Part shown: positions 36,612-41,374 of the stretch, piece by piece
Layout: every line of letters begins with the position of its first letter
Numbering within the stretch: position 1 is the first letter of the stretch
From: Singulisphaera sp.
GTDB taxonomy: Bacteria > Planctomycetota > Planctomycetia > Isosphaerales > Isosphaeraceae
Reading direction: 5' to 3'
Length of the DNA: 41,374 bases
NCBI GenBank assembly: GCA_027451445.1
Contig: DAIDJG010000007.1
Coordinates: forward strand, 1-41,374
Translations under genes and position numbers: made by a program
The notes under the pieces: model-generated
Told to the model about the DNA's origin: nothing
Seen by the model: only the letters and a program-made list of their open reading frames with translations
The model's database searches: none

Positions 36612-37628
36612 ATGCCTACCGACGACGATCTCTTCAACGAAGAAAAGACGATGGTCGCGATGAGCTTCGGGGAGCACATCGAAGAACTGCGCGCCCGGCT
36701 CATCCTTGCACTGCTTGGTCTCGGAGTTGGTGTGATCCTAACGTTCATCCCAGGCATCAACCTGGGAAAGCGAATCATGACCAAGATGGAGGAGCCTGCC
36801 AAAGGAGCGCTGAAGGACTTCTACTCCAATCAGGCCGCGGAGAGAGCGAAGGAAGCCAGAGAGGCCGAGCGACTGACTTCGACGACGGAAGCCCGAGTGC
36901 CCGCCGACGCGCTGGTCGAGCAGCTCCGAAAGATCGCCCCCAGCCTCAACCTCCCGCCGGCCGAAACGCTCAAGGACCAGGTCGTCACCTTGCCGATGCG
37001 CTTCGCCCAGGCGGACATGATCGACGTGATCGAGGAAGGCAGTCGGGTTCCCGAAGCCCTGATCTCGCTCGCACCGCTGGAGACCATGACCATCTTTTTC
37101 ATGGTCTGCGTAATCGCCGGACTGGTGCTGTCGAGTCCCTGGGTATTCTACCAAGCCTGGGCGTTCGTCGCCGCCGGACTCTACCGTCACGAACGTCACT
37201 ATGTCATGCGTTACCTGCCGTTTTCACTGGGTTTGTTCCTCACCGGCGTATTGCTTTGCTTCTTCTTCGTCTTGCCGATCACGTTAAGCTTCCTCCTCGA
37301 GTTCAACGTCTGGCTGGGGATCGAGCCGACTCTACGCCTCACCGACTGGATGAGCTTCGCGACGATCTTGCCGCTGGTCTTCGGCGCGTCGTTCCAGACC
37401 CCACTCGTGATGCTCCTCTTGGAGCGAATCGGCATATTCTCCGTGGACGATTACCGCTCGAAGCGGAAGATGGCCATCCTCATCATCGTCGTCGCGGGCG
37501 CGGTGCTTACACCGGGCCAGGATCCGTTTAGTCAGTGCTTGCTCGCGGGACCGATGATCTTGCTCTACGAAGTCGGCATCATCCTCGTCAGCCAGGGCAA
37601 GAAGACCCCGGCGAGTGTGGAGGTATGA
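36612..37628 (+). CDS. tatC: Sec-independent translocase TatC with a large loop insert
   Basis: 338 residues from the ATG at 36612 (MPTDDDLFNEE); a GTG at 36600 is in frame. TatC, the receptor of the twin-arginine pathway. Cytoplasmic N-terminus with FGEHIEELRARL; TM1 about 31-48. The first periplasmic loop, usually about 35 residues, is here about 105 (52-156) with a charged helical insert (AAERAKEAREAERLTSTTEA), before LAPLETMTIFFMVCVI. Later motifs hold: WAFVAAGLYRHER (Glu 194 matches E103 of E. coli), SFQTPLVML where E. coli has Glu170 and many organelle proteins have Gln, and TPGQDPFSQCLLAGPMILLYE. Its stop overlaps the next start as ATGA. Confidence 0.94.
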   Translation: MPTDDDLFNEEKTMVAMSFGEHIEELRARLILALLGLGVGVILTFIPGINLGKRIMTKMEEPAKGALKDFYSNQAAERAKEAREAERLTSTTEARVPADALVEQLRKIAPSLNLPPAETLKDQVVTLPMRFAQADMIDVIEEGSRVPEALISLAPLETMTIFFMVCVIAGLVLSSPWVFYQAWAFVAAGLYRHERHYVMRYLPFSLGLFLTGVLLCFFFVLPITLSFLLEFNVWLGIEPTLRLTDWMSFATILPLVFGASFQTPLVMLLLERIGIFSVDDYRSKRKMAILIIVVAGAVLTPGQDPFSQCLLAGPMILLYEVGIILVSQGKKTPASVEV

Positions 37629-39166
37629 GCGAAAGTAGTGGTCTCGGCATCGTCTATCTGGTCGGAGCGGGTCCCGGCGATCCGGGACTCCTGACGAGAC
37701 GAGGCGCGGAGGTCTTGCGCTCGGCGGAGGTGGTCGTTTATGACCATCTCGCGAGCGCTCGCTTGCTCGACCTCGCCCCAGCGCAGGCCCTTCGGATCTG
37801 CGCGGGGAAGTCGATCGGACACATGACTCTCTCTCAGTCGGAGATCAACGCAGCCCTCGTAGAGCATGCGCGCGCGGGCCGGCGAGTCGTCCGCCTCAAG
37901 GGAGGCGACCCGTTCGTCTTCGGCCGAGGCGCGGAGGAGGCCGAGCACCTCCGAGCCTCGGGGGTACTGTTCCAGGTCGTGCCGGGAGTCACGGCCGGCG
38001 TCGGGGTGACCGCCTACGCGGGCATGCCGGTCACGCATCGCGACATGGCGTCCGCCGTCGCATTTGTTACGGGCCACAACGATCCCGAAGCCACCGACGA
38101 CCACCATCGGCTGGATTGGTCCGCCCTGGCCCGGTTTCCGGGCACGCTGGTCGTCTACATGGGAGTGACCCGCCTTCCCAGCCTGTGCCGGACGTTGATC
38201 CGTCTCGGCAAGCCGGACACGACGCCCGCCGCCCTGGTGGAGGCTGGCACGATCGCCCGGCAACGGACGGTCACGGGCACGCTCGCCGATCTCCCGGAGC
38301 GAGTTGCCGAGGCGAAGCTCGGTCCTCCCGCGCTGCTCATCATCGGTTCGGTCGTCGACCGCCGGCCCTCGCTGCGCTGGTTCGAGGCGCTCCCGCTGTT
38401 CGGCCAGCGGATCGTCGTGACCCGACCCAGCGACGAGTCCGATCGCGCCGCCTCCGTCCTCGAAGCGCTCGGGGCCGAAGCCCTGATCGCTCCCACGGTC
38501 GCGATCCTGCCACTGGAAGACTACACGCCGCTGGATACGGCGATCGACGGCCTGTCCGAGTTCGACTGGCTCGTCTTCACATCCGCGAACGGCGTACGAC
38601 ACTTCCTCGACCGCCTGGAGATCCGAGGCCGGGACCTGCGTGCCGTGGGCCATCTGAAACTAGCAGCCATCGGCCCAGCGACCGCGGAGGCCCTCGCCGC
38701 CTGGCGACTGCGCGCCGATGTGGTACCCAACTCGTACCGCTCGGAGGCCCTCGCGGCTGCGCTGGCTGAACAGGTCGCCGGCCAACGCGTCCTGCTCGCC
38801 CGAGCCGACCGCGGCCGCACAATCCTTAAAGATGAGCTCGAGCGGCTGGCTGAGGTCATCCAGGTACCCGTCTACCGCAACACGGACGCCGAATCACTCC
38901 CTCCCGCGATCGTCGAGCGAATCGCGGCGGGATCAGTCGATTGGATAACGCTGACCAGCTCGGCCATTACGGAAAGGCTTCACGCCTTGTTGCCCGATGC
39001 TCTGCGCTCACAGGTCGGGCGTTCGATTCGGGTCGCAAGCCTCAGCCCTGTGACGACAGCGGCCGCCGAACGACTCGGCTGGACGGTTGCAGCCGAGGCT
39101 CAAACCTATACCTGGGATGGACTTGTGCAGGCGATCGCCGAGCGAGTGGGGAAGGATCGGGCGTGA
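37625..39166 (+). CDS. cobA/hemD: uroporphyrinogen-III C-methyltransferase / uroporphyrinogen-III synthase fusion
   Basis: 513 residues; ATG at 37625 overlaps the tatC stop (ATGA) with GGAGG just before. Residues 1-250 are the SUMT/CobA methyltransferase making precorrin-2: VYLVGAGPGDPGLLTRRG, RLKGGDPFVFGRGAEEAEHL, VVPGVTAGVGVTAYAGMPVT, VVYMGVTRLPSL. Residues about 258-513 are HemD, which closes the linear tetrapyrrole: RIVVTRPSDESDRAASVL, DWLVFTSANGVRHFLD, KLAAIGPATAEAL and DWITLTSSAITERLHAL. Fusion of the two is known in clostridia and several other phyla. It supplies siroheme, haem and B12. No precorrin-2 dehydrogenase domain is attached. Confidence 0.95.
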   Translation: MSESSGLGIVYLVGAGPGDPGLLTRRGAEVLRSAEVVVYDHLASARLLDLAPAQALRICAGKSIGHMTLSQSEINAALVEHARAGRRVVRLKGGDPFVFGRGAEEAEHLRASGVLFQVVPGVTAGVGVTAYAGMPVTHRDMASAVAFVTGHNDPEATDDHHRLDWSALARFPGTLVVYMGVTRLPSLCRTLIRLGKPDTTPAALVEAGTIARQRTVTGTLADLPERVAEAKLGPPALLIIGSVVDRRPSLRWFEALPLFGQRIVVTRPSDESDRAASVLEALGAEALIAPTVAILPLEDYTPLDTAIDGLSEFDWLVFTSANGVRHFLDRLEIRGRDLRAVGHLKLAAIGPATAEALAAWRLRADVVPNSYRSEALAAALAEQVAGQRVLLARADRGRTILKDELERLAEVIQVPVYRNTDAESLPPAIVERIAAGSVDWITLTSSAITERLHALLPDALRSQVGRSIRVASLSPVTTAAAERLGWTVAAEAQTYTWDGLVQAIAERVGKDRA

Positions 39167-39524: not shown

Positions 39525-39986
39525 TCAGCGCGGTTGAACGGGGATCGTCCGCGGTTTCGCGGCCTCCTTCTTCGGTAGTCGGACTGTCAGCACGCCATGG
39601 TGCGACTCAGCCTGCGCCGCATCGAAGTTGACGTCGCTCGACAGTGAAACCGCACGATGGAAACAGCCCGTCGCACGCTCCTGGGCCAGGAGATTGCCCG
39701 CCGGGACGCCTCCGACCGGCTTGTCGCCTCGCAGGTTGAGCACGTTGCCCGTGACGGTCAGGTCGATCGTCGAAGGGTCAACGCCGGGCAGGTCGGCGAC
39801 CACCACGAGTTCCTCCGGCGTTTCGATCACGTCGACAGCGGGGGTCCATGCCGACGGTTCCGCGTCGGCCGCCGACGGCCCGATTCGCGCTGGGTTGACG
39901 TAGTCCTCGAACAACCGGTTCAGCTCGGTCTGCAAGCCGCTGAGCGTGGTTGCCAACTCGCGGCGCAACGGAATGAAACGGCCCAT
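39525..39986 (-). CDS. small heat shock protein Hsp20, third of a tandem set
   Basis: 153 residues from the ATG at 39986 (MGRFIPLRRELATTL), with GGAG 8-9 bases before; an earlier in-frame start at 40052 is less likely. ATP-independent holdase of the alpha-crystallin family. N-terminal arm to about residue 45; the crystallin domain runs from PAVDVIETPEELVVVADLPG to the family motif A-x-x-x-G-V-L in AESHHGVLTVRLPKKE, followed by the I-P-V tail (RTIPVQPR) that mediates assembly. It differs clearly from its two neighbours, so the set arose by old duplication or acquisition, not by a recent copy. Confidence 0.92.
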   Translation of the reverse strand: MGRFIPLRRELATTLSGLQTELNRLFEDYVNPARIGPSAADAEPSAWTPAVDVIETPEELVVVADLPGVDPSTIDLTVTGNVLNLRGDKPVGGVPAGNLLAQERATGCFHRAVSLSSDVNFDAAQAESHHGVLTVRLPKKEAAKPRTIPVQPR

Positions 39987-40087: not shown

Positions 40088-40519
40088 TTACGATTTGATT
40101 TCAATCCGCCGAGTCTTCGTGCGCTCGGCCTTCGGCAACGTCAGCCGGAGCACGCCGTGCCGCAATTCCGCAGTGATCCGGCTGCGTTCGACCTCGTCGC
40201 TCAGGATGAACGACCGGTGGAAGTCACCAGCGGGGTATTCTTCGTAAAGCGTGCGCGCTCCTTCCGGAGCGGCCGACACCGTACGCGCAACCAGGGTAAG
40301 AACATTGTGTTCCAGGTGAATGCTTACCGTGTTTTCGTCGACTCCCGGTAAGTCCGCCTCCAGGATCAAACCCTCCGGACCTTCATGGATGTCGATCGGC
40401 GGGGTAAGACAAGGCCGCGCCGGTTCCCTCACAGCCTCGGTGCTTGCCGCGAGTTGCGTCTGAGATTCCGCCGGCCCCGGCCCCATCACGACTTTGACAG
40501 AATGCGGGTCCGTGCTCAC
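40088..40519 (-). CDS. small heat shock protein Hsp20, second of a tandem set
   Basis: 143 residues from the GTG at 40519, which has GGGAG about 8 bases before (TTG at 40534 is the alternative). Pro/Ala/Ser-rich N-terminal arm (to about 43), then the crystallin domain PPIDIHEGPEGLILEADLPG to AELRHGVLRLTLPKAE with the A-x-x-x-G-V-L motif, and the I-E-I tail (RRIEIKS). The spacer to the next gene upstream is 92 bp and to the next downstream about 100 bp, consistent with one operon of three. Confidence 0.9.
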   Translation of the reverse strand: MSTDPHSVKVVMGPGPAESQTQLAASTEAVREPARPCLTPPIDIHEGPEGLILEADLPGVDENTVSIHLEHNVLTLVARTVSAAPEGARTLYEEYPAGDFHRSFILSDEVERSRITAELRHGVLRLTLPKAERTKTRRIEIKS

Positions 40520-40611: not shown

Positions 40612-41052
40612 TCAGGACGACGACGCAACGGGAATCTGCCGCGGTTTAGCCCCCTCCGCCTTGGGGATCGTAACCGTCAAAATCCCCTTGGCAAAGACCG
40701 CCGACACCTTTTCGCTCTCGACTCGCTCCGGCAGCGTGATCGTCCGCGTCCAGCGCACGAACGGCCGTTCCTGGCGACGATAACTCTCATCCGAGACCCC
40801 GTCCGGACGCTTGCGCTCCCCCCGAAGGGTCAGCGTTTCGCCCGTGATCGCGAGATCGAGGTCAGCGGGTTCCATCCCCGGGAGCTGGACCGTCAACACG
40901 TACCGGTCCGCCGTGTCGTACAGGTTGAGCGGCGGATACTGGCGGACCAGGCGCCAGGTTTGAAGCGGCTCGAGGCTCTCGAACAGTCGCCCCACCTCGC
41001 GCTGAAGGTCGCGGAAAGGATCCCAACGCCGCTGCGGGTGAAGCCCACTCAT
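40612..41052 (-). CDS. small heat shock protein Hsp20, first of a tandem set
   Basis: 146 residues from the ATG at 41052 (MSGLHPQRRWDPFRDLQREV). An earlier in-frame ATG at 41127 exists, but a sigma-54 promoter at 41107-41124 would place the transcript start near 41097, after that ATG, so the later start is chosen. N-terminal arm with WDPFRDLQREVGRLFE; crystallin domain PPLNLYDTADRYVLTVQLPG, SYRRQERPFVRWTRTITLPE, and the A-x-x-x-G-I-L motif in AVFAKGILTVTIPKAE, followed by I-P-V (RQIPVASS). First gene of the stress operon. Confidence 0.92.
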   Translation of the reverse strand: MSGLHPQRRWDPFRDLQREVGRLFESLEPLQTWRLVRQYPPLNLYDTADRYVLTVQLPGMEPADLDLAITGETLTLRGERKRPDGVSDESYRRQERPFVRWTRTITLPERVESEKVSAVFAKGILTVTIPKAEGAKPRQIPVASSS

Positions 41053-41106
41053 TCCGATGGCCTCCCTGGGCCGTATGAGCGTTTGAGGAAGACGATCGAA
41101 ATACCA

Positions 41107-41124
41107 AAGCAGAGATCGTGCCAA
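41107..41124 (-). promoter_or_regulatory. sigma-54 promoter upstream of the hsp20 set
   Basis: On the minus strand TTGGCACGATCTCTGCTT. It matches the consensus YTGGCACG-N4-TTGCW at every fixed position but one (CTGC for TTGC), with GG and GC separated by exactly 10 bp, the spacing that sigma-54 requires. The start of transcription would be near 41097, about 45 bp before the hsp20 ATG at 41052. Confidence 0.75.
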
Positions 41125-41245
41125 CACGCGGATACACGCCGGGGCGTGGAGCGGCCGAGCGATCGGAAGCCAAATCTCCGTAATCTGTTAGAGCAATCCG
41201 CTTAATCCGTAACGGCCGAGCAAGCGCCACCAGGCCGCTTTACCC

Positions 41246-41315
41246 ATGGTGCCAAAAAGGCAGGCCACTCGCAAGCGATCGCAGTGCGTGACCGCGATGG
41301 TGCCAATTTGACAGG
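41246..41315. promoter_or_regulatory. two near-palindromic direct repeats, candidate enhancer sites
   Basis: Two 19-bp words, 41246-41264 (ATGGTGCCAA-AAA-GGCAGG) and 41297-41315 (ATGGTGCCAA-TTT-GACAGG), are identical at 15 of 19 positions and start 51 bp apart, close to five helical turns. Each has dyad symmetry (TGCC-AAAAA-GGCA; TGCCAA-T-TTGACA). They centre 158 and 209 bp upstream of the predicted sigma-54 start. The rest of the region 41053-41374 shows no gene. Confidence 0.65.
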
Positions 41316-41374
41316 AAGCCGCGACCGCGGGTTACCAAACGAGCTTGAGGTTCTGGTACCGCCCTTGTTGGAAG

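Follow-up and report, generated by a model that had tools for sequence, protein, structure and literature searches.

The window analyzed here, 41,374 nucleotides of DNA from a planctomycete of the genus Singulisphaera, makes up a complete contig (C7) of a genome of 10.9 Mb assembled in 622 contigs (G000). Its right end is occupied by three tandem small heat shock (hsp20) genes on the minus strand, which the initial annotation had recognized from the letters alone; all three products match the alpha-crystallin domain of Pfam (PF00011) above the cut-off. The features of this region are as follows.

39525-39986, minus strand: hsp20 gene 3, 153 aa (PF00011, E 2e-15)
40088-40519, minus strand: hsp20 gene 2, 143 aa, start codon uncertain (PF00011, E 9e-16)
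40612-41052, minus strand: hsp20 gene 1, 146 aa (PF00011, E 2e-18)
41107-41124, minus strand: sigma-54 -24/-12 promoter TTGGCACGATCTCTGCTT, GG-N10-GC, score 20.5 of 22
41250-41262: promoter-proximal dyad TGCCAAAAAGGCA, 139 bp before the TGG of the -24 element, start to start
41301-41313: promoter-distal dyad TGCCAATTTGACA, 190 bp before the same TGG and 51 bp from the proximal dyad
41332-41374, minus strand: 3' end of the upstream gene, reading ...FQQGRYQNLKLVW stop, cut by the contig end (read by eye)

The gene fragment at 41332-41374 marks the boundary of the regulatory region, and the upstream genes at two orthologous hsp20 loci (L020 and L021) have similar ends when read by eye. The consensus of sigma-54 promoters is TGGCAC...TGC, with GG and GC separated by ten nucleotides in the -24/-12 element, and TGGCACGATCTCTGCT reaches 20.5 of 22 against it on a scale of our own. 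The element runs from 41124 to 41107, that is, from -72 to -55 relative to the ATG of hsp20 gene 1 at 41052, just where a near-consensus -24/-12 element had been proposed 55 bp before the first hsp20 start; transcription of gene 1 is predicted to begin near 41097. Because the intergenic gaps between genes 1 and 2 and between genes 2 and 3 contain no -24/-12 candidate, even at 15 of 22, one promoter may serve all three genes. On the opposite strand, adjoining tatC and the hsp20 cluster, lies a gene for a fused tetrapyrrole methylase and uroporphyrinogen-III synthase (37535-39166, plus strand).

Upstream of the promoter, two 19-bp repeats had been described 51 bp apart. Their positions (41246-41264 and 41297-41315) and letters are confirmed, but the repeat is over-specified: comparison with the orthologous loci leaves as its conserved core only a 13-bp dyad, TGCCA-N3-TGGCA, whose centre is rich in A and T. 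The right half-site of this dyad resembles the -24 box itself.

A protein search with hsp20 returned 17 loci, from which seven planctomycete orthologs (L020-L026, 63-78% identical) were retained, the other ten being distant relatives. By its hsp20 relatives, the genome falls in the family Isosphaeraceae, near Singulisphaera. In each of the seven orthologs, a -24/-12 element stands 63-88 bp ahead of the ATG, together with two dyads that match at least 8 of the 10 arm bases. Four of them (L020, L023, L025, and L026) repeat the layout of the window, their dyads standing 185-190 and 133-141 bp upstream of the -24 element and 49-52 bp apart; at L024, the dyads lie 173 and 121 bp from the stronger promoter candidate, spaced 52 bp, and at L021 and L022 the two dyads are 28 and 27 bp apart. 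The three hsp20 genes stand in tandem at five of the seven loci, while two genes are seen at L025 and L026 stops at a contig end. In Singulisphaera acidiphila (L021), the -24/-12 element is doubled in tandem, the two copies being 23 bp apart and 65-88 bp before the ATG.

Neither element is striking when taken singly, and neither shows a clear genome-wide enrichment. The promoter core TGGCACGN5TGCW occurs at 10 places in the genome, compared with 27 for the reversed control, and is useless as a search motif when used alone. The dyad with at most one mismatch is found at 25 sites, compared with 17 for its control, and in S. acidiphila at 23 compared with 20; three of these 23 (L115, L120, and L123) precede chaperone genes and are accompanied by a sigma-54 site at the distance of an enhancer, the hsp20 dyads of that species being too degenerate to enter the list. 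The original 19-mer is too narrow for searching: it has 14 genomic places, two of them in the window, and among the 12 outside, one (on contig C448) is a chaperone promoter, the other 11 lying mostly outside the regions examined. The case for a regulon rests on the combination of the elements and on its conservation. A promoter together with two dyads is present in all 16 upstream regions of hsp20 (eight, counting the window) and dnaK (eight, described below), compared with none of 4,800 dinucleotide shuffles. It should be mentioned that the thresholds were set after the hsp20 set had been viewed; groES, dnaK, htpG, and groEL were then scored with the same thresholds.

When the surroundings of all 25 dyad sites were scanned for a sigma-54-like element scoring at least 19 of 22, at a distance of 85-200 bp and in the correct orientation, eight sites, making up six promoters, proved to have one. 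Given how densely such elements occur in 244.5 kb of fetched DNA of the same genome, true sites included, 0.44 would be expected (Poisson probability about 7e-6 for six). The other 17 dyad sites, which have no such partner, are probably mostly chance occurrences. The six promoters and the genes behind them are the following.

Window (C7): operon of three hsp20 genes
C448: hsp20 gene
C2: htpG
C610: second groEL
C540: groES, then groEL
C416: contig end; dnaK by synteny

The genes identified behind these promoters are chaperone genes only. The initial annotation had staked its proposal on further copies of the site before stress genes, and here they stand before other chaperone genes, in every case next to a -24/-12 element. 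The genome also has three hsp20 genes (on C36, C609, and C350) without the arrangement, which thus marks particular hsp20 copies and not the family as a whole. At htpG (locus L078), a second copy of the dyad, C2 25792-25804, overlaps the -24 element (TGCCAAATTGGTACACCGCTTGCC) and could let an activator hold off transcription there. By eye, a dyad copy also overlaps the hsp20 -24 element at L020 and L026.

The sixth site, on C416, served as a blind check of the regulon, as the gene beyond the contig end was not known beforehand. The divergent neighbour of the site on this contig is a chorismate mutase/prephenate dehydratase gene, whose ortholog was found in all ten Isosphaeraceae genomes searched. 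In eight of the ten, the gene on the other side is dnaK (by Pfam in three and by the translated start in the others), and all eight dnaK genes have a sigma-54 element with two dyads, which lie 98-116 and 142-159 bp upstream of the -24; at C416 itself these distances are 112 and 153 bp. The remaining two relatives have a different divergent neighbour, and no dyad-promoter pair was seen there. On the basis of synteny, the sixth site most likely belongs to dnaK in this genome as well.

Among the chaperone genes, groES allows the widest comparison, being present in all 40 genomes surveyed. Counted by the best match per genome (which makes L223 a miss; G012, with only a weak match, and several second copies were set aside, and L150 and L160 are represented by L238 and L236), the dyad with its promoter is found in 36 of 39 genomes belonging to seven families: 24 of 24 in the Isosphaeraceae and 12 of 15 elsewhere in the class. 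Besides L223, the misses are L159, where only the promoter is kept, and L219, whose dyad is accompanied by no promoter that reaches the threshold. The pair is seen in none of nine lower-ranking groES copies and in 0.1% of shuffled groES upstream sequences. From the start of the dyad to the -24 element, the best-scoring pair measures 119-126 bp in 28 of the 36, 88-91 bp in four, which is about three helical turns less, and 99, 110, 130, and 135 bp in the remaining four; L163 and L236 have two dyads, for which alternative counts of 119 and 88 exist, and the dyad of L222 is weak. In S. acidiphila, the spacings at groES, htpG, and groEL are 122, 123, and 92 bp, compared with 122, 121, and 91 bp in the genome of the window. 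Across the 36 groES dyads, positions 10 (G) and 12 (C) never vary, positions 1-4 (T, G, C, and C), 11 (G), and 13 (A) each agree in 32 to 35 of them, and the inner arm is looser (position 5 is A in 22 and G in 13; position 9 is T in 30). groES usually has one dyad, whereas hsp20 and dnaK have pairs.

In classical bacterial heat-shock regulons, control is exerted by a heat-shock factor of the sigma-70 family or by repressors. Sigma-54, on the other hand, is silent without an ATP-consuming activator. The arrangement described above, conserved across genera and families, agrees with the initial proposal of a sigma-54 regulon in which the repeats are the predicted activator site, and we consider it very probable that chaperone genes across the class Planctomycetia form a sigma-54 regulon driven by a single enhancer-binding protein (EBP), with the window containing the regulatory region of its hsp20 operon. 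RNA polymerase with sigma-54 would form a waiting closed complex on the -24/-12 element, and a common AAA+ EBP would bind the 13-bp dyads about 90-190 bp upstream and, upon folding stress such as heat or misfolded proteins, open the complex through DNA looping and ATP hydrolysis. The paired dyads of dnaK and hsp20 may allow cooperative loading and hence a steeper response than the single dyad of most groES genes.

Which EBP this would be is a separate question. The genome has rpoN (PF00309 match on C540, E 5e-12) and 20 matches to the EBP domain PF00158, of which 17 are strong and 11 of the strong ones have the GAFTG loop. The EBPs of Pirellula have reportedly been treated by Studholme and Dixon in 2004, a work cited in the heat-shock study of Rhodopirellula baltica. 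We compared 116 PF00158 proteins from eight genomes of six families, setting aside weak matches (3 of 20 in G000, 4 of 25 in G001, 10 of 18 in G014, 6 of 17 in G027, and those above E 1e-20 in the four other genomes). Since the groES site is kept in all eight genomes, the activator should be conserved in all eight, and among the 17 EBPs of this genome only two, L095 and L100, keep a reciprocal best match throughout the seven other genomes. L103 (six of seven), L054 (two of seven), and L097 (no reciprocal match in G034, whose groES keeps the site) were rejected. L054, a receiver-type EBP with a histidine kinase (C448, 3931-6794), lies about 4 kb from the hsp20 gene with the dyad-promoter arrangement on that contig. 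Several other EBPs of this genome deserve a mention in their own right: L093, L094, and L098 are receiver-type proteins sharing an unusual C-terminus (RCA...GLSRRS), and L059 (C113) is a 615-aa protein with an extended N-terminal region, whose start has a strong -24/-12 element (TGGCACGGAGTATGCT, 57744-57759) some 165 bp ahead of it, on the opposite strand.

L100 (C67) consists of an AAA+ domain and a Fis-type helix-turn-helix without a receiver domain (domains determined for the G000 and G031 proteins) and measures 346-411 aa across the eight genomes. Its recognition helix reads NRNTL in all eight, and the sigma-54 loop GAFTGA is intact in five, the others having GSFTGA, GAFTNA, and GAFTSA. 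In six of the eight genomes, it is preceded by a homologous open reading frame (BLASTP); of the two products of this frame tested with Pfam, the G000 protein has HEAT repeats and the G001 protein has them below the cut-off. This architecture, without receiver or sensor domain, is that of PspF, which is controlled by its partner PspA. By score, however, L100 is not PspF (280.3 bits against an NCBIfam cut-off of 443.55), and it differs from PspF in that the preceding gene encodes a HEAT-repeat protein. A sensor-less EBP needs a controlling partner, which would fit a response driven by misfolded proteins, and for this reason we favour L100 over L095, at about even chances of its being the activator. 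More tentatively, and with less than even chances, we can picture a takeover of the chaperone arm by sigma-54, in which dnaK, groESL, the second groEL, htpG, and hsp20 would be switched by L100 through TGCCA-N3-TGGCA in place of HrcA and sigma-32, and in which L100 would be restrained by the HEAT-repeat protein or by free chaperone and set free when misfolded proteins titrate that partner.

The same regulon might instead be activated by L095 (C361), a two-component response regulator whose gene is preceded by a histidine kinase gene, so that the trigger would be a phosphorylation signal and not the release of a sensor-less EBP. Besides its reciprocal best matches, L095 keeps its recognition helix, ERT-[LM]-YRK, in all eight genomes, and it resembles the AtoC, NtrC, and ZraR regulators, all scores being below the cut-offs. 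Against L095, the GAFTGA loop is intact in five of the eight orthologs; it is altered in G034 (GAFTDA) and G029 (GAYTDA) and is not recognised in G027, though groES keeps the dyad in these three genomes. L095 also has no link to chaperones, any more than L100. Looking for the activator through dyads near its own gene or through chaperone genes beside it gave nothing convincing: no dyad with 9 of the 10 arm bases lies upstream of either gene in this genome (L095 has one weak dyad, 8 of 10), the neighbours read, a minority of them put through Pfam, include no evident chaperone gene (four L095 orthologs, L241, L243, L252, and L281, lie outside this reading), and a 9-of-10 dyad at the L100 ortholog of G031 stands about 600 bp after the gene. 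Taken together, L095 is a possible activator that we think somewhat unlikely.

A further objection concerns the signal, as the sigma-54 promoters might answer to nutrients, the envelope, or the cell cycle, with heat induction coming from elsewhere. According to the available text of a study of the R. baltica heat-shock response, rpoH, rpoE, and rpoN are all present and none is regulated by heat, and the authors state that this suggests a significantly different response cascade (PMC2754498). In Chlamydia, the available passages report that rpoN falls on heat shock, although the gene for the activator, atoC, rises (PMC8762339). Control by an EBP, however, would not require heat regulation of rpoN, and the genes behind the six promoters are, htpG apart, of the chaperone kinds that R. 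baltica is reported to induce upon heat shock, namely, ClpB, GroEL, DnaJ, GrpE, Hsp20, DnaK, and Cpn10/60 (PMC2754498). We regard a different signal as rather improbable.

The palindrome before chaperone genes has a formal likeness to CIRCE, the operator of the repressor HrcA, whose consensus is TTAGCACTC-N9-GAGTGCTAA. The dyad could thus be an ordinary operator for a repressor or activator, the -24/-12 element being incidental and a sigma-70-type promoter being used. HrcA/CIRCE and sigma-32 control likewise place a common element before dnaK, groESL, and hsp20, but here the dyad lies about 88-190 bp upstream of the -24/-12 element, at a spacing that is nearly fixed within each gene family; this distance argues for an enhancer, not a blocking operator, and positive control is to be expected. 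The scanned upstream regions of groES, dnaK, and hsp20 (those of htpG, the second groEL, and C448 lay outside the scan) contain no CIRCE matching at least 14 of 18 positions; this includes the region of hsp20 gene 1, where its absence had already been remarked in the initial annotation. An operator of this kind is therefore very improbable. A class-wide loss of sigma-32 is, for its part, unlikely because rpoH is reported to be present in R. baltica. Finally, chance resemblance, which the single elements, hardly commoner than their controls, might suggest, is practically negligible given the 16 of 16 regions against none of the 4,800 shuffles, the 36 of 39 groES genes against none of the nine other copies, and a sixth site that led to dnaK with its gene not known beforehand.

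Small heat shock genes have reportedly been found with a sigma-54 promoter in Escherichia coli (ibpB) and Stigmatella (hspA). These are single genes, whereas here a set of chaperone genes has a common activator site. Chlamydia belongs to the same superphylum as the planctomycetes and likewise has a chaperone operon with a sigma-54 promoter. As far as the passages available tell, tandem sigma-66 and sigma-54 promoters precede hrcA-grpE-dnaK in that organism, the activator is AtoC, and HrcA represses the sigma-66 promoter via CIRCE (PMC8762339), an element with no counterpart in the regions scanned here. The nearest precedent is a computational study published in PLoS One in 2025, in which, according to the parts available, predicted sigma-54 promoters are enriched before the genes for GroEL, GroES, IbpA, GrpE, DnaJ, and DnaK, within the Planctomycetota mainly in the Planctomycetia (PMC12316311). 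The regulon had been called undescribed in the initial annotation, which is only partly true, as the sigma-54/chaperone link was thus already predicted; the activator site, on the other hand, does not appear in the open-licence literature searched (titles, beginnings of abstracts, and passages). The parts available of that survey treat promoter enrichment by COG and name, for the chaperones, neither a common activator site nor a spacing nor an EBP, and HSP90 (COG0326) is mentioned there for the Bacteroidia, whereas here htpG is in the set (PMC12316311). What is added here is the common enhancer with its geometry, the inclusion of htpG, and the two candidates for the activator. A search for the letters of the motif met only unrelated work on zebrafish; the passages seen of papers on D. 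vulgaris, Xylella, R. etli, and plant pathogens contain no sigma-54 chaperone regulon, and those of a paper on Geobacter IHF list one Hsp20 gene among expression values.

These observations suggest that the heat-shock response of the Planctomycetia differs from the textbook models. If true, a sigma-54 chaperone regulon would represent a different control logic, kept through seven families of a class that is hard to study. It could also explain how R. baltica induces its chaperones without regulation of rpoH, rpoE, or rpoN. Since the dyad motif is defined and L100 and L095 are named as candidate EBPs, the question can be put to a direct test.
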